This document shows, piece by piece, positions 16,611 to 40,530 of a stretch of 42,500 nucleotides of DNA. The stretch is taken from contig VGCI01000005.1 of assembly GCA_016870095.1 (NCBI GenBank), positions 1 through 42,500 on the forward strand, written 5' to 3'. The notes under the pieces are model-generated. The model did not search any database. It saw only the letters and a list, made by a program, of their open reading frames with translations, and had not been told where the DNA came from. The position numbers were made by a program, and so were the translations under genes. Position 1 is the stretch's first letter; each line of letters starts with the position of its first letter. This DNA is from Alphaproteobacteria bacterium (GTDB lineage: Bacteria; Pseudomonadota; Alphaproteobacteria; Paracaedibacterales; VGCI01).

Positions 16611-17801
16611 ATGACGAAAGCGAAATTTGAGCGGAATAAGCCGCATTGTAACATAGGAACGATTGGTCACGTTGATCATGGGAAGACATCATTGACAGCC
16701 GCGATAACGAAGATATTGGCAGAGAAGGGTCAAGCGAGTTATACAGCGTATGACCAGATTGACAAAGCGCCTGAAGAAAGAGCTCGTGGGATAACGATAT
16801 CGACGGCGCACGTTGAATATGAGACTGATAATCGTCACTATGCGCACGTTGACTGTCCAGGTCACGCTGACTACGTAAAGAATATGATCACTGGAGCGGC
16901 GCAAATGGATGGCGCGATATTGGTTGTATCAGCAGCTGATGGTCCGATGCCCCAAACCCGTGAACATATTTTGTTGGCGCGCCAGGTTGGCGTTCCTGCG
17001 TTGGTAGTTTTTATGAATAAGACGGATATGGTAGATGACAGCGAGTTGTTAGACTTGGTTGAGATGGAAATTCGAGATTTGCTAACGTCGTATGGTTATC
17101 CTGGGGATGATATTCCGATTATCCGCGGGTCAGCGTTATGTGCTCTTGAAAGCCGAGATCCTGAAAAAGGAGCGGATGCGATTAAGAAGTTGATGGATGC
17201 TGTGGATGCATCTATACCGCAACCTGAGCGCCCGAAGGATCGTCCGTTTTTGATGCCGATAGAAGATGTGTTTTCGATATCGGGCCGAGGAACGGTTGTG
17301 ACGGGTCGCGTTGAGCGTGGCGTTGTGAAGGTTGGTGAAGAAGTTGAGATTGTGGGACTTCATGCGACGACGAAGACGGTTGTTACGGGAGTTGAAATGT
17401 TCCGCAAGCTTCTGGATCAAGGAGAAGCTGGTGATAACATTGGAGCCCTATTGCGCGGAACGAAGCGAGAAGAAGTTGAGCGTGGTCAAGTATTGGCAGC
17501 GCCTGGTTCTATCAACCCGCATACAGACTTTGAAGCGGAAGCTTACATATTGACGAAAGAAGAAGGGGGCCGCCATACACCGTTTATGACGAACTACCGT
17601 CCTCAATTTTACTTCCGTACGACGGATGTGACGGGAATGGTGTATTTGAAAGAGGGAGTTGAGATGGTGATGCCTGGCGATAACATCGCGATGAAGGTAG
17701 AATTGATCGCTCCGATTGCGATGGATGAAGGATTACGGTTTGCGATTCGTGAGGGTGGCCGAACTGTTGGGGCTGGTGTGGTCTCAAAAATCTTAAAGTA
17801 A
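16611..17801 (+). CDS. tuf: Elongation factor Tu, copy 2
   Basis: Second EF-Tu gene, in its usual str-operon place after fusA. The protein is identical to copy 1. A line-by-line comparison of the 1191 bp shows one difference, GCC (1162-1164) against GCT (17772-17774), 27 bases before the end of the gene. Flanking sequences on the downstream side are unrelated. GAGAGGG lies 4 bases before the ATG. Near-identity of two copies 16.6 kb apart is best explained by gene conversion. It shares copy 1's GCG- and ACG-rich codon use. Confidence 0.98.
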
Positions 17802-31998: not shown

Positions 31999-32832
31999 AT
32001 GACTCAATTTATTTACCAAGTTTGTATACTCATTTTGTTGAATACCCTCGGAATTTATGCGAGTGAGTCCAGTCTTTTGATAAAAGAATATCCATCGGGA
32101 AATATTGTTGTTGAGGAGGGATCTGTCGATGAGCAGGTATCTCCCTGTTCAACGTTTAAAATTGTTTTAAGTTTAATTGGTTATGATCAACAAATCCTTA
32201 TTAGTCAAACCAATCCAGTGTGGAAATTTCGTGAGGAATATTTATCATGGAATACTTTGCGTCTGCCAAATTGGGGGGTTGATCAAACACCGACAACCTG
32301 GATGAGACATTCGTGTGTCTGGTTCTCGCAAGTTCTCACGAAGCGCTTAGGTAGTGAAACATTCCAGCGCTACGTTCAGTTGCTTGGTTATGGCAATGAG
32401 GATTTGGAGGGCGATAAGGGGAAAAACAATGGTCTAACGCATGCGTGGCTATCAAGTAGCTTAAAAATATCTCCTAGAGAGCAGGTGAATTTTCTTCAAA
32501 AATTTATGGATCACAAGTTACCATTTTCTGATATAGCCTATAAGTTTACTCGAGACTTATTGTTTATTGAAGACTTACCCGGAGGTTATAAGCTCTATGC
32601 AAAGACAGGCTCAGGCTCCCACCGAATGGATAAAGGAGCGACTGTGAGTGTTTCCCGACCTATTGGATGGTTTGTTGGCTGGGTTGAGCCGCCAAAAGAT
32701 AAGCCTGGGCAAATTTTGACTTTTGCGAGTTTAGTAAAAGGACAGGATGGTGATGCTATCCCTGCACGTATTATGGCGAAGAATAATGCCACTGAGCGCC
32801 TCAAATCTCTTTTATTGAACAGTGCTCCCTAG
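31999..32832 (+). CDS. Class D (OXA-type) beta-lactamase, secreted
   Basis: Serine beta-lactamase that opens the beta-lactam ring in the periplasm; family membership is supported by motifs. A signal peptide covers about residues 1-21 (IYQVCILILLNTLGIYA). The motifs are in order: STFK at 51-54 (active Ser51; Lys54 is the residue that is carboxylated in the family), SCV at 105-107, YGN at 131-133, W150 before LSSSLKIS, KTG at 202-204, and GWFVGWVE. At 277 residues it has normal enzyme length, and no membrane segment suggests a BlaR-type sensor. It is a single gene after the rplQ terminator with no integron or IS. A loose promoter match is TTGAAA (31930) with TATTTT 16 bases on. Substrate range cannot be read from the sequence. 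Confidence 0.9.
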   Translation: MTQFIYQVCILILLNTLGIYASESSLLIKEYPSGNIVVEEGSVDEQVSPCSTFKIVLSLIGYDQQILISQTNPVWKFREEYLSWNTLRLPNWGVDQTPTTWMRHSCVWFSQVLTKRLGSETFQRYVQLLGYGNEDLEGDKGKNNGLTHAWLSSSLKISPREQVNFLQKFMDHKLPFSDIAYKFTRDLLFIEDLPGGYKLYAKTGSGSHRMDKGATVSVSRPIGWFVGWVEPPKDKPGQILTFASLVKGQDGDAIPARIMAKNNATERLKSLLLNSAP

Positions 32833-32845
32833 AGCGTTCATTTAT

Positions 32846-33472
32846 TTAATCTGGTATCATATAGAAGTCAGGATTAAATTTCTTTAATGCTTCGGTTAAT
32901 TTAGCCAAGGTTGAGTCTTTTTGAGAGCCAAATTGCACCTTAGTTGCTAATTTAGCAACCAAACTTTCCTCTTTTAAAGCTTCAGCTCCAAAAACAAGTT
33001 CTTTTCCATTAAGCGAGGATACCAAGCTATCAGTGAAATCAAAATTTCTGACAGCTTCACTTAAGGATATATCTTTTAGGGCTTCACGCGTGTCAAACAC
33101 AGAGACTTTTTCAACGAGGGAAAAAACAAGTTTCTTCGACAAAGCATCTATTAAGAGAGCATCTTGCGTATCGCTCATAACTGGAGAAGACTCCGGAGTG
33201 ATAAGTAGGGTTGTCAATTGTTCTGGTGTAAGAGATCGAAGTAAGGTATCAGCTTTTGTAACGTTGGGAGTGACATTATCTAAGTCTTTTAGAGAAAGTT
33301 TTGAGCCATTATTTTCTGCCATAACGACTTGCATTTTTGTGGTTACATCAACTTTTTCAATGTCATTTTCTTTAGCAACGCTGGGTGAAGAATAGGCAGC
33401 CCATGCAATATTTTGTGTACTACTGATACTCAAAATGAGACAACTAAGAATGAATGTAGATTTTATAGACAT
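32846..33472 (-). CDS. Unknown secreted helical protein
   Basis: I do not recognise this 208-residue protein. It begins with a probable signal peptide (MSIKSTFILSCLILSISSTQ, with a likely cut after AWA near residue 25). The rest is predicted by eye to be mostly helical, rich in Leu, Ser, Lys and Asp, with no Cys and no recognised motif. It ends in an Asn-Pro-Asp-Phe-Tyr segment. GGAGGG lies just upstream of the ATG, a strong ribosome binding site. It is convergent with the beta-lactamase gene, with a 13-base gap. A periplasmic or exported location is inferred. Confidence 0.75.
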   Translation of the reverse strand: MSIKSTFILSCLILSISSTQNIAWAAYSSPSVAKENDIEKVDVTTKMQVVMAENNGSKLSLKDLDNVTPNVTKADTLLRSLTPEQLTTLLITPESSPVMSDTQDALLIDALSKKLVFSLVEKVSVFDTREALKDISLSEAVRNFDFTDSLVSSLNGKELVFGAEALKEESLVAKLATKVQFGSQKDSTLAKLTEALKKFNPDFYMIPD

Positions 33473-35852: not shown

Positions 35853-36053
35853 ATGAAAAATTTATTAGCATTATTTACTTTGGTTGCTGGCATTTTGATA
35901 AGTGCAAATTCAGCTGAAGCATCCGTTAAGACTACTAATGTATTTAAAAGCATGGAAATTACTCAAAATAACCCTTGGGATCCTCGAGATAAACAACCTG
36001 TTAATGAAAATTCTCAAGATGAAGTTATCAATACTGAAATTGGAAGTGAATAA
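35853..36053 (+). CDS. Small secreted peptide of unknown function
   Basis: A 66-residue product with a clear signal peptide (MKNLLALFTLVAGILISANS, then AEA near residue 23). The mature part of about 43 residues is hydrophilic, contains NNPWDPRDKQPVNENSQDEV, has no Cys and is acidic at the end. AGGAG lies 9 bases before the ATG, and two hairpins, the second a strong terminator, follow, so it looks like an independently transcribed gene. I do not recognise a family. Confidence 0.7.
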   Translation: MKNLLALFTLVAGILISANSAEASVKTTNVFKSMEITQNNPWDPRDKQPVNENSQDEVINTEIGSE

Positions 36054-36083
36054 GAGATTCGCTCTTATAAATTTTAGGAGTCT

Positions 36084-36102
36084 ATTCACCATTTAGGTGA
36101 AT
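36084..36102 (+). repeat. Hairpin after the small secreted peptide
   Basis: ATTCACC (36084-36090) pairs with GGTGAAT (36096-36102) around an ATTTA loop. It has no T run and precedes the true terminator by a few bases, so it may stabilise the transcript 3' end. Confidence 0.5.
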
Positions 36103-36108
36103 GTAATA

Positions 36109-36150
36109 AGGTTGATCGATGAATTTTATCGATCAACCTTTATTATTTTT
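36109..36150 (+). terminator. Intrinsic terminator of the small secreted peptide gene
   Basis: AGGTTGATCGAT (36109-36120) pairs with ATCGATCAACCT (36128-36139) around a GAATTTT loop, giving a 12-bp perfect stem, followed by a T-rich tract (TTATTATTTTT, to 36150). It separates the peptide gene from mltG. Confidence 0.85.
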
Positions 36151-36223
36151 AATGCAATCCTCTTTCTCATTGTATCCATTCTTTCCAGTAGAATTCAAAT
36201 AAGAAAACCCCTACAATTTTATT

Positions 36224-37198
36224 ATGAGAAGCAAAATTGTAACATTTTTCTTGACGTTAAGCCTTGCCTCATTAGGGTGCGTGATCATTTTATGGGCTCC
36301 AGGGGGAGCATTAGCTCCCGGTCCAAACAATCAAGACGTAACAATTCTTATCGAAAAAGGCAGCGGTTTAACAGCGACAGCAGATGCTCTTGTTTCACAA
36401 GGCGTGGTTAAATATCCGTGGGGATTTGTGGCTGCTGTCATTTTTGCGGATAAGAAGGGGGCTCTTAAGGCAGGCGAGTATCTCATCCCGGCTCAAGCGC
36501 GGCCTATCGATATTGCGCACATACTGGCCAGTGGCAAAGTGATTGTTCATCAAGTTACCATTCCTGAAGGCTTAACGGTTACGCAGATCATTAAGATTGT
36601 AAAGGATGTTGACAATTTAAGTGGAGAGATTATTCGAATTCCGGAAGAGGGGGCCTTGCTCCCAGAGACGTATAGCTACGTTCGCGGAGAGTCTCGTGAG
36701 AAAGTATTATCTCATATGCGTCGGGCAATGACTCAAGCCTTGAAGGAAGTCTGGGGCAGTCGCTCTGCTGATTTTCCTCTGAAATCACCAGAAGACCTCC
36801 TTGTATTAGCATCAATTATAGAAAAAGAAACAGGTGTTGCAGCCGAACGTCCACGCGTTGCAGCGGTGTTTTTAAATCGATTAAAAAAAGGAATGAAACT
36901 TCAATCAGATCCGACGGTTATCTATGGCTTAACAAGAGGGGAAAAACCCTTAGGTCGTCTTTTGACCTTGAATGATTTAAAACATGTATCCGATTATAAT
37001 ACCTATGTTATCCCGGCCTTGCCTCCTAAGCCCATAGCATGTCCGGGTCTTAAATCTTTGCAGTCCGTCGTCAGTCCCGCCAAAACACCCGATGTATATT
37101 TTGTAGCGGATGGTACGGGCGGCCATGCTTTTTCTGCAACCTATGACCAACATCTGCAAAATGTTAAAGAATGGCGCAAAGTCCAAAAGACTGACTAA
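36224..37198 (+). CDS. mltG: Endolytic murein transglycosylase MltG
   Basis: MltG cleaves nascent glycan strands at the inner membrane and ends peptidoglycan polymerisation. The 324-residue protein has an N-terminal membrane anchor (about residues 5-24), the LysM-like part DVTILIEKGSGLTATADALV and the catalytic YceG domain with LLPETYSYVRGE (145-156) and LASIIEKETG (195-204), in which a conserved Glu (200 or 202) is catalytic. SDPTVIYGL and the end YFVADGTGGHAFSATYDQHL are diagnostic. No strong ribosome binding site is visible before ATG 36224. In many genomes it neighbours fabF or pabC, but not here. Confidence 0.93.
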   Translation: MRSKIVTFFLTLSLASLGCVIILWAPGGALAPGPNNQDVTILIEKGSGLTATADALVSQGVVKYPWGFVAAVIFADKKGALKAGEYLIPAQARPIDIAHILASGKVIVHQVTIPEGLTVTQIIKIVKDVDNLSGEIIRIPEEGALLPETYSYVRGESREKVLSHMRRAMTQALKEVWGSRSADFPLKSPEDLLVLASIIEKETGVAAERPRVAAVFLNRLKKGMKLQSDPTVIYGLTRGEKPLGRLLTLNDLKHVSDYNTYVIPALPPKPIACPGLKSLQSVVSPAKTPDVYFVADGTGGHAFSATYDQHLQNVKEWRKVQKTD

Positions 37199-37278
37199 AA
37201 AGTTGTTCTTCTTAATTTTCCTTTAATAAATTTCTTTTACAATAGAATGATAATTTATTGATAAGGGAGTTGATTGTT

Positions 37279-37983
37279 ATGAGCTATGAAAAGCAAGTAA
37301 AAGCAATTATAAGGTTTGCTCTTACCACCTTTAGTCTACTTTTTGTATTGGGAGCTTCCCATGCAAATGATAAATTTAGAAAAGCATTATTAGATCCGAC
37401 TGCCAACTTCGGTAAAAATCGTCCCTTAGATAACCTATTACGTGCAGCATCCGCAAAACCTGATAGTGCGGCTAAAGGTTTATTGCCAGAAGGGGATCAA
37501 GCCACAATTGGGCAAAAAATTCATGCACTTCGAAATATTATCAATTCAAATGCTCCTGCGGATCAAGCCGATAAAGCGCAAATAAAAGAAATTTTAGGCT
37601 TGAATATACCTGGCATTGGGCCAAGTGATCTCCATTTTTTTACAATGATTGCGGCTTCCTCTGGTTTATTGGAAACGCTTATAGAGGGAGAAAATACTTT
37701 AGAAAAAGGTATGGGAGCCGTTGCGGCCCACATAGCGAAAAGATCTGTCGATCCTCAAGATGCTGCCCATGGTAAACCCGCTCTGGTTCCTTTCCAACAA
37801 CTTGATGTTCTAACGGCTCTGATCAATAAATACGAGTTAGTCGTCAAAACAGGTAGGGTAGCTCTTTCTCACAATGATAAAATCTCCCTTGATGAGTTAA
37901 AATATGCCCTTGGGGTTTATGGTTATGGGGATCGTGAAAGTGTACGCTTGCTGAAAGCGTACCTTGAGGCTGCCCGGCGCTAG
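37279..37983 (+). CDS. Unknown secreted helical-repeat protein, paralog 1
   Basis: A 234-residue protein from ATG 37279; AAGGGAG lies 9 bases before it, which makes it a better start than the TTG at 37258. A signal peptide covers about residues 1-29 (RFALTTFSLLFVLGASHA). The mature part has two similar helical segments: residues 79-108 (KIHALRNIINSNAPAD, then IKEILGL) and about 177-212 (VLTALINKY, then LDELKYALGV). The first closely resembles residues 119-146 of the next gene's product. I do not recognise a family; a periplasmic or exported structural or binding role is possible but unproven. Confidence 0.75.
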   Translation: MSYEKQVKAIIRFALTTFSLLFVLGASHANDKFRKALLDPTANFGKNRPLDNLLRAASAKPDSAAKGLLPEGDQATIGQKIHALRNIINSNAPADQADKAQIKEILGLNIPGIGPSDLHFFTMIAASSGLLETLIEGENTLEKGMGAVAAHIAKRSVDPQDAAHGKPALVPFQQLDVLTALINKYELVVKTGRVALSHNDKISLDELKYALGVYGYGDRESVRLLKAYLEAARR

Positions 37984-38205
37984 AATCCTGAGATTCATTT
38001 AGAAAAGTACCACTGAGGTGCAGACTGTTTGTTGCAAAGAAAATAATGTTTGTGAAACGAAGTCAGTCAACCACTAGAGCCTATTCCAGGCTCTAAAAAA
38101 TTTCATGTTTTAAATAAATTAGTCATTTTTCTTATTCATATTTTTTTAATAATTATTGGATAATATGAAAGAGGATCATTCATTAATTATAAGGAGATTA
38201 TTGTC

Positions 38206-38874
38206 ATGAGCGTTACGAAAAATTCAAAATTAGGTAGAGTATTATTGGCGACAACAGTTATGGCTGCCCTGTTTGGTTTACCTGAAGCTGGTCATGGTCT
38301 AGATAGATTAGCAAAACAACAAGCTGCTCAAAAGCAAGAGCATGCAGCTTTGCAAGCTCGAACGCTTGACGGGGTTCAAGATCCGGTGAAATTTTTAAAT
38401 ACAGTAAATGATCCGATTGCAGCTCTCAGAGTACCAGCAGCTAACGGAAATCTATCTGACATCTTTAATAAAGCTATTGCGGTTGCGGGTAGTACAGCAG
38501 CAGTGCAATTAGCTGCTGTTAGATTGCCTGCTGCTGCAGCAATTACGCCTGCGATGAAAGCTAAAGTCTTTGAAGCAATACGCACTTCTGCAAATCCAGC
38601 TGATAGTGAAATTAAGAATTCAATTAAAACAGCTTTAGGACTTGATCATAGCGCTGCTTCAGATCCGTACTTAGAAATGTTTACCGACGAAGCTGTTGAG
38701 GCAACAATTATGAGAGACCTATTAAGGGATTTGGGAGGACGCACAAAAATAGCAAAAATAGAAAGTCTGTTGGCGAGACTAAATGCCGGTACTCATAAAG
38801 CCAACGATGGAACTCCCGTAGCAGCGGGTGTCGCTAATAATATAAGTCGGGCATTAAATCGCCTTGGATTATAA
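38206..38874 (+). CDS. Unknown secreted helical-repeat protein, paralog 2
   Basis: A 222-residue protein with a probable signal peptide (residues 1-30, LGRVLLATTVMAALFGLPEA). The mature part is Ala-rich and helical. KVFEAIRTSANPAD and IKTALGL (residues 120-146) match the segment in the upstream gene's product, and the last 40 residues (KIESLLARLNAG, then ISRALNRLGL) look like a further copy of the same module. AAGGAG lies 9 bases before the ATG. The 222-base gap before it holds only AT-rich sequence and one hairpin (38075-38095). Not recognised. Confidence 0.75.
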   Translation: MSVTKNSKLGRVLLATTVMAALFGLPEAGHGLDRLAKQQAAQKQEHAALQARTLDGVQDPVKFLNTVNDPIAALRVPAANGNLSDIFNKAIAVAGSTAAVQLAAVRLPAAAAITPAMKAKVFEAIRTSANPADSEIKNSIKTALGLDHSAASDPYLEMFTDEAVEATIMRDLLRDLGGRTKIAKIESLLARLNAGTHKANDGTPVAAGVANNISRALNRLGL

Positions 38875-38907
38875 AAACATTTAACGGTAAATATTTGGTT
38901 TAGTGAG

Positions 38908-38934
38908 AGGGGGAATCTGACGATTCCCCCTTTT
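38908..38934 (+). terminator. Intrinsic terminator after paralog 2
   Basis: AGGGGGAATC (38908-38917) pairs with GATTCCCCCT (38922-38931) around a TGAC loop, followed by TTTTCTT. It lies 33 bases after the paralog 2 stop codon and just before the end of the convergent beta-barrel gene. Confidence 0.88.
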
Positions 38935-38938
38935 CTTG

Positions 38939-39679
38939 TTAGATTTTCACAACCAAGCCGAGGTTGAAATAATGCACAGTTGGTTTTGTGCGAATATTAC
39001 TAAACTGCGTGGCTGAGTTAGTAACATTCGTTGTCTTTCGGGGATGTAACGCGATACGGTAATCAGTACGAAGGGACAAGCGTGGGGTTAGATCTGTTTC
39101 TAAACCGAATCCCGGTACAAAGGCGGTACTCGTTGTATTTTTGACGATCGAAAGGAGATTGGGATCAGTTGCTGCGACGGCTGCATTCCCAGTTCCATTA
39201 AAATTGGTTCGGAAGCGTCGGGATTCAAGGCCCAATTTTACATAAAGTTTGGTTGTTGGATTCATATAATACCCAAAATTGAATGTGCCACCCCAAGCAT
39301 TCGTTGTTTTAATAGATAAAAATTGTCCATTATCAGAAGTTGTTAATGGTGTAATATCTAAGGGAGCATTGGCATTTAGGGAAGAAAGAGAAGCAAGAAC
39401 TTCAAAACCAACCCAGGTGCACTGAAACCGTTTTCCAAATCCAACAAAAATATCGGCAGCAAAATTTTTGTCGCCTATAGTCGGGTTAAAGTTCTGGGGA
39501 ACATCTCCAAGAGCTGGTATGTTCCTGCGTACAGACAAATTACTTTTACCTGTTAGTGCCGTTCCGCCAAGGGCAGCGCCCGCATAAAAGCCACTTTTCG
39601 GATGATTGGCATGGGTAGATGTGGCAGCGAGGGTAACAAGACTTGCTACAACGAGACTACTTTTCAGTACTTTTTTCAT
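38939..39679 (-). CDS. Outer-membrane beta-barrel protein
   Basis: A 246-residue protein with a signal peptide (residues 1-25, KKVLKSSLVVASLVTLAATS, cut after THA). It shows the alternating amphipathic strands of a small (about eight-stranded) barrel: GFYAGAALGG, FAADIFVGFGKRF, WGGTFNFGYYMN, KLYVKLGLESRRF, AFVPGFGLETDL, LSLRTDYRIAL, VHYFNLGLVVKI. The last residue is Ile rather than the usual Phe. It is like OmpA/Opa-type surface antigens of alphaproteobacteria; the function is unknown. GGAG lies before the ATG. Confidence 0.82.
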   Translation of the reverse strand: MKKVLKSSLVVASLVTLAATSTHANHPKSGFYAGAALGGTALTGKSNLSVRRNIPALGDVPQNFNPTIGDKNFAADIFVGFGKRFQCTWVGFEVLASLSSLNANAPLDITPLTTSDNGQFLSIKTTNAWGGTFNFGYYMNPTTKLYVKLGLESRRFRTNFNGTGNAAVAATDPNLLSIVKNTTSTAFVPGFGLETDLTPRLSLRTDYRIALHPRKTTNVTNSATQFSNIRTKPTVHYFNLGLVVKI

Positions 39680-39722
39680 AAACTCAACTCCATAATTAAA
39701 AATTTAATTAAAATACTCTTAA

Positions 39723-39751
39723 AATTTAATATATGAAAATGTTAGATTCAA
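39723..39751 (-). promoter_or_regulatory. Promoter candidate for the beta-barrel gene
   Basis: Read on the minus strand, TTGAAT (39746-39751) and TAAATT (39723-39728) are 17 bases apart, 43 bases before the start of the outer-membrane protein. Only matched by eye. Confidence 0.4.
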
Positions 39752-39840
39752 CCCAAAATTCTAAAGGCATTATATTTTGCTGAATTACTGTGACAAAATT
39801 GTCCTATTCATTATGGTCAAGATGAGCAAGGGTACAAGGT

Positions 39841-40530
39841 TCAGGAAATACACCCACAAACATTTAAGGCTTCCCGCATGTGGTCGGGTGGTGCCGCTAC
39901 GACAGAAATGGAGGCCTTTTTCGGGTAAAGGGGAATTTCAAGAGATCGTGCATGCAGGTGGAGAAAGGCATTAGGCTCTGTCTCGCCAGATGAATCGTAA
40001 ATATAATCGCCAACAATGGGGTGCCCCAAGGCGGCACAATGAACTCGCAACTGATGAGTGCGTCCCGTTTGCGGTGTAAGTTCAACCCATGTCAAGCCAT
40101 CGCCCCGCCCCAGAACACGGTAATCTGTAATGGCGGAAATACCAAATTCCTCATCAACTTTCATCCACCAATGTTTTTTGCTGCTGGATTGTTTACTTAA
40201 AGGGAAGTCAATTCGCCCTTCATCCCGGGCGAAAGTGCCTTTTACAATAGCCCAATAGGATTTCTTAATTTGGTTGTTTTTAAATAGGACACCAAGACGT
40301 CGAGCGGCTTCTTTATGACGGGCCAAAATTAAGCAACCACTGGTGCCGCGGTCAAGACGATGGGCTAGGGTAGGCGGGTTTGGCAGCCCAAATTGAAGAG
40401 CAGGGAAATGGCGCTCTAAATTGTTTAACCCGCCATTTGCTGTGTGGACCGCAATCCCTGAGGGTTTATCCAACACAAGAATTAAAGCATCACGGTAAAG
40501 GATGCGGGCGACCATTTCTTCAGCTGTCAT
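39841..40530 (-). CDS. RluA-family RNA pseudouridine synthase
   Basis: Converts specific uridines to pseudouridine in rRNA or tRNA. The 229-residue protein has the RluA signature LAHRLDRGTSGCLILARHKE, with the catalytic Asp60, then LTPQTGRTHQLRVHCAALGHPIVGD. There is no N-terminal S4 domain, so it is of the short RluA/TruC type; the target base cannot be told. Its start overlaps the bolA stop codon by four bases (ATGA), so the two are probably co-translated. Confidence 0.92.
   Translation of the reverse strand: MTAEEMVARILYRDALILVLDKPSGIAVHTANGGLNNLERHFPALQFGLPNPPTLAHRLDRGTSGCLILARHKEAARRLGVLFKNNQIKKSYWAIVKGTFARDEGRIDFPLSKQSSSKKHWWMKVDEEFGISAITDYRVLGRGDGLTWVELTPQTGRTHQLRVHCAALGHPIVGDYIYDSSGETEPNAFLHLHARSLEIPLYPKKASISVVAAPPDHMREALNVCGCIS

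Follow-up and report, generated by a model that had tools for sequence, protein, structure and literature searches.

A probable, strongly diverged tandem pair of orphan proteins, probably exported and encoded beside mltG in a variable interval of one alphaproteobacterial species

Introduction

Gene families confined to a single species are common. The closest described counterparts of the gene pair analysed here are the lineage-specific exported orphan (ORFan) families of host-associated bacteria, which it resembles in the signal-peptide-like N-termini of its products, in its one-species range (as searched) and in its position in a variable slot, and from which it differs in that it comprises two tandem copies that have diverged and whose leaders match. 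A comparison is also offered by the source genome itself, in which contig C2 carries an array of beta-barrel genes: these too are tandem duplicates, probably exported, and one of their leader pairs matches about as well as that of our pair, but they are akin to a recognised Pfam family with members in congeners, whereas our pair has neither and is modelled as helical. A likeness to the phospholipase ExoU (PDB 4akx, 3tu3) goes no further than a profile match that is weak and spans alignment positions 83-232, and we rejected ExoU as a relative, as the match is not significant (E=0.1) and is taken as chance.

The source bacterium may be a Holosporales-like protist symbiont. In such symbionts the likeliest secretion route is a non-standard type VI system, and the secreted molecules are still to be identified (review, PMC11909080). 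No link of either protein described below to a type VI system was found.

Results

The interval between mltG and the pseudouridine synthase gene

The window, that is, the whole stretch of 42,500 nucleotides that was analysed, contains two neighbouring genes, here called P1 and P2, in the following setting.

36224-37198, forward strand: mltG (YceG family; PF02618, E=6.3e-77), the conserved left border
37279-37983, forward strand: gene 1 (P1), 234 aa; predicted mature part 205 aa, pI 8.7, no cysteine
38206-38874, forward strand: gene 2 (P2), 222 aa; predicted mature part about 192 aa, pI 9.3, no cysteine
38909-38940, no strand: G+C-rich hairpin GGGGGAATCTGACGATTCCCCC, then TTTTCTTGTT, where gene 2 and the outer-membrane gene converge
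38939-39679, reverse strand: outer-membrane beta-barrel gene (PF13505, E=1.1e-11), the third cargo gene of the interval
39841-40530, reverse strand: RluA/RluC-type pseudouridine synthase gene (PF00849, E=1.3e-33), the right border, conserved in three congeners

In three congeners mltG (69-71% identical) is conserved together with a block of pseudouridine synthase, BolA-like, FtsJ-like and Ppx/GppA-like genes, the last three names coming from our own inspection of the sequences. From mltG to the synthase gene, each congener has different DNA: G003 has there a gene for an exported protein of 348 aa that matches GNAT, G002 one for an exported protein of 635 aa that falls in no family, and G001 genes for a small protein and for a DUF4143 ATPase. 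Because the borders are conserved and the contents differ from congener to congener, we regard the P1/P2 pair as cargo of a variable interval. The nearest congener copies of the beta-barrel gene sit at other sites.

Upstream of mltG, G003 (L021, 9344-11395) and G002 (L022, 545-2299) encode large exported or membrane proteins; all that the window encodes there is one probably exported protein of 66 aa (35853-36053). The C2 array in the source genome (L032, 11429-16784) encodes six proteins, all of them small and probably exported, and the beta-barrel gene next to P2 resembles at least four of these.

The two genes and their products

Both open reading frames proposed by the first-pass annotation proved genuine, and they are neighbours that share their orientation and are alike in length (234 vs 222 aa). 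Codon statistics trained on other genes of the window fit the annotated frame of both, both have good Shine-Dalgarno sites, their G+C content matches the surroundings, and their first six bases are alike (ATGAGC). The start of P1 is likely the ATG at 37279 because AAGGGAG lies directly 5' of it. The hairpin downstream of P2, which was read directly from the sequence and had no entry in the automated scan, is likely a terminator; a search for RNA families gave zero matches in 36000-40000.

The N-termini of both products are signal-peptide-like, with positive charge followed by a hydrophobic stretch and with likely cleavage, read by eye, after ASHA in P1 and near AGHG in P2. The signal peptides previously assigned to both products therefore fit, as judged purely by inspection, and on this ground P1 and P2 are probably exported.

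The earlier statement that neither product has a known domain also stood, as neither has a Pfam, NCBIfam or significant PDB match; a PHROGs search returned one match only (E=0.14). AlphaFold2 models from single sequences reached a mean pLDDT of 40.3 (P1) and 45.0 (P2), values too low for a verdict on the fold. Both models consist mostly of helices, and those of the core lie roughly in the register of the alignment, at a low confidence that makes this no evidence of fold. Both proteins are probably helical, going by these models.

Similarity of the two proteins

37504-37683, forward strand: conserved core of P1, residues 76-135, pairing with P2 residues 114-173 at 30% identity
38545-38724, forward strand: conserved core of P2, residues 114-173

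The motifs on which the initial proposal of diverged paralogs was built are present at the spacing described, with KIHALRNIINSNAPAD from residue 80 and IKEILGL from residue 102 in P1, and KVFEAIRTSANPAD from residue 120 and IKTALGL from residue 140 in P2. The two cores match in BLASTP with E=0.005 (a single comparison), and identity over the shared part is a modest 26-30%. With the signal peptides removed, the mature proteins align over ~140 columns with a Smith-Waterman score of 65, a value reached in 44 of 50,000 full shuffles (p about 0.001) and, when both proteins were shuffled inside windows of 20 or 10 residues, in 15 and 18 of 20,000, respectively. The reversed-sequence control scored 35, and the top scores against 151 real proteins (58 for P1, 56 for P2) were likewise below 65. 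In terms of z, the P1-P2 value of 4.87 was exceeded by two of 302 real-protein comparisons (5.57 and 5.24, with lower raw scores).

This signal is concentrated in a 33-residue core, which alone gives z=6.1. Outside the core neither flank is significant by itself (z=0.13 for the N-terminal part, z=0.88 for the part after LGL), and the coding DNA of the two genes is not alignable. The similarity of P1 and P2 is beyond chance, by a margin that is not wide; the pairing withstood the comparison with shuffled sequences that the first-pass annotation had named as able to refute it.

The 5' leaders

37199-37278, forward strand: gene 1 leader, with promoter-like TACAAT and Shine-Dalgarno AAGGGAG, resembling the gene 2 leader
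38126-38205, forward strand: gene 2 leader, with GATAAT at 38159-38164 and Shine-Dalgarno AAGGAG

The 80-bp leaders of P1 and P2 align with a local score of 26. Dinucleotide shuffles score 13.7 +/- 2.4, and 26 is reached in 2 of 2000. Among the 2485 pairs formed by the leaders of 71 genes of the same genome, the P1-P2 pair ranks first, followed by two genes of the C2 array of outer-membrane proteins and, in third place with a score of 24, by P1 and the neighbouring outer-membrane gene. Given this third rank, part of the leader similarity may be common to the A+T-rich leaders of envelope genes. When 14 coding bases are added to the leaders, the scores are 33 for P1-P2, 25 for P1 and the outer-membrane gene, and 17 for P2 and the outer-membrane gene. 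With the 16 start-proximal bases left out, 60-bp leaders are not significantly similar (178 of 2000 shuffles reach the score).

A whole-genome search with the P1 leader gave no further strong copy. The shared start context GGAGNNNATTRTYATG has an exact match at one other place only, an FKBP-type isomerase gene, and thus reveals no further family members. Together with the protein alignment, the leader similarity supports the earlier proposal of diverged paralogs.

Search for relatives

No third member was found in the source genome, and no relative in the three congeners. Searches of 143 genomes with each protein as query gave no true relative: the P2 matches at E <= 0.01 in G137 and G068 were judged chance on inspection, the former containing one stop and the latter lying in an Arg/Gly-rich frame that is probably no real gene frame. 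Nor was a relative found in 42 genomes of the order, in a sample of 385 genomes of the class, among GTDB contigs searched with peptide patterns, in viral contigs, in plasmids (P1 query only) or in phages (P2 query only). A weak match on contig C1 of G003 (E=0.11) was rejected as a third member and taken as chance because it lies, in frame, within a gene that reads as dapB. Matches to a profile of the core at E 0.05-0.09 were also attributed to chance; they include an iron-sulfur protein and, in two genomes, a protein resembling aldolases. Within the reach of these searches the pair is thus confined to one species, and its description as an undescribed family agrees with their failure to turn up any relative.

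Other genes in the window and in a congener

The window also encodes, at 32846-33472 on the reverse strand, a probably exported 208-aa protein without a Pfam match, beside a transpeptidase/beta-lactamase-like gene; its leader is unlike those of P1 and P2. The probably exported 277-aa protein encoded at 31999-32832 on the forward strand matches PF00905 (E=9.5e-40), the penicillin-binding transpeptidase domain, and is about as long as a class D beta-lactamase. Two elongation factor Tu genes (1-1191 and 16611-17801) have an identical translation of 396 aa. In congener G003, a probably exported 255-aa protein (L027, 663-1430) is built from near-identical tandem repeats (SFNADDLLKGVTAGPLGLKAAQIQALKEE...).

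Discussion

The reading that we favour is that P1 and P2 are old, strongly diverged tandem duplicates, a view to which the protein and leader similarities point together. The duplication would have taken the leader, with its promoter and ribosome site, along with the coding part. Each gene would then give a small, probably helical protein of roughly 190-205 residues, which its signal peptide would export across the inner membrane. The pair occupies the slot between mltG and the pseudouridine synthase gene, in one species only within the range searched. Paralogy, export and one-species distribution, taken jointly and leaving the role aside, are in our judgment probable, with real room for error.

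The main competitor, which we consider rather unlikely, is that P1 and P2 are unrelated exported orphans that are adjacent by accident, the PAD...IK..LGL pattern being a coincidental likeness of two helical, Ala-rich sequences. The confinement of the signal to about 33-60 residues, with flanks that are not significant, speaks for such an accident, as does the occurrence of comparable z values in real-protein comparisons (2/302), and models of such low pLDDT (40.3, 45.0) are too poor to reveal a common fold. Yet fewer than one in 1000 shuffles that preserve local composition reach the P1-P2 score, and the leaders of the same two genes are the best match as well. Those leaders could instead mark P1, P2 and the adjacent outer-membrane gene as one expression class of envelope proteins, with P1 and P2 not paralogous. 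The third rank of P1 and the outer-membrane gene among the leader pairs speaks for such a class, but the class leaves the similarity at the protein level unexplained, the extended P1-P2 leaders score well above either pairing with the outer-membrane gene, and the genome-wide search turned up no other strong copy; we consider it improbable.

The first-pass annotation had gone further than tandem duplication and seen in each protein a repeated helical module, with a second, weaker copy near the C-terminus. LDELKYALGV and ISRALNRLGL do briefly resemble IKEILGL and IKTALGL, but the internal comparisons of both proteins are no better than shuffled sequence: the core against the C-terminus gives z=0.29 in P1 and z=1.13 in P2, and whole-protein self-alignment, used for repeat detection, gives p=0.61 and 0.31, respectively. 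The two C-termini compared with each other give z=-1.1. We therefore abandoned the repeated module, and a tandemly duplicated exported protein built on one appears to us very improbable.

As for what the proposed duplicates do, the likeliest role, as non-enzymatic periplasmic or surface proteins at an interface with a host or the environment and under fast turnover, is a conjecture that we hold weakly and that is more doubtful than the duplication itself; the host-facing position suggested in the first-pass annotation is likewise a possibility. Fast turnover would account for both the divergence of P1 from P2 and their one-species distribution. The broadest reading, in which the pair is a new exported helical family at the host interface and the mltG-rluC interval is a genus-wide cassette site for fast-changing exported proteins, seems to us unlikely.

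On their own, P1 and P2 would be one more orphan family with a putative function. If the finding is true, one interval of this genus would be marked as a site where exported, species-specific proteins arise and change, which would help in picking candidates for studies of symbiont and host.
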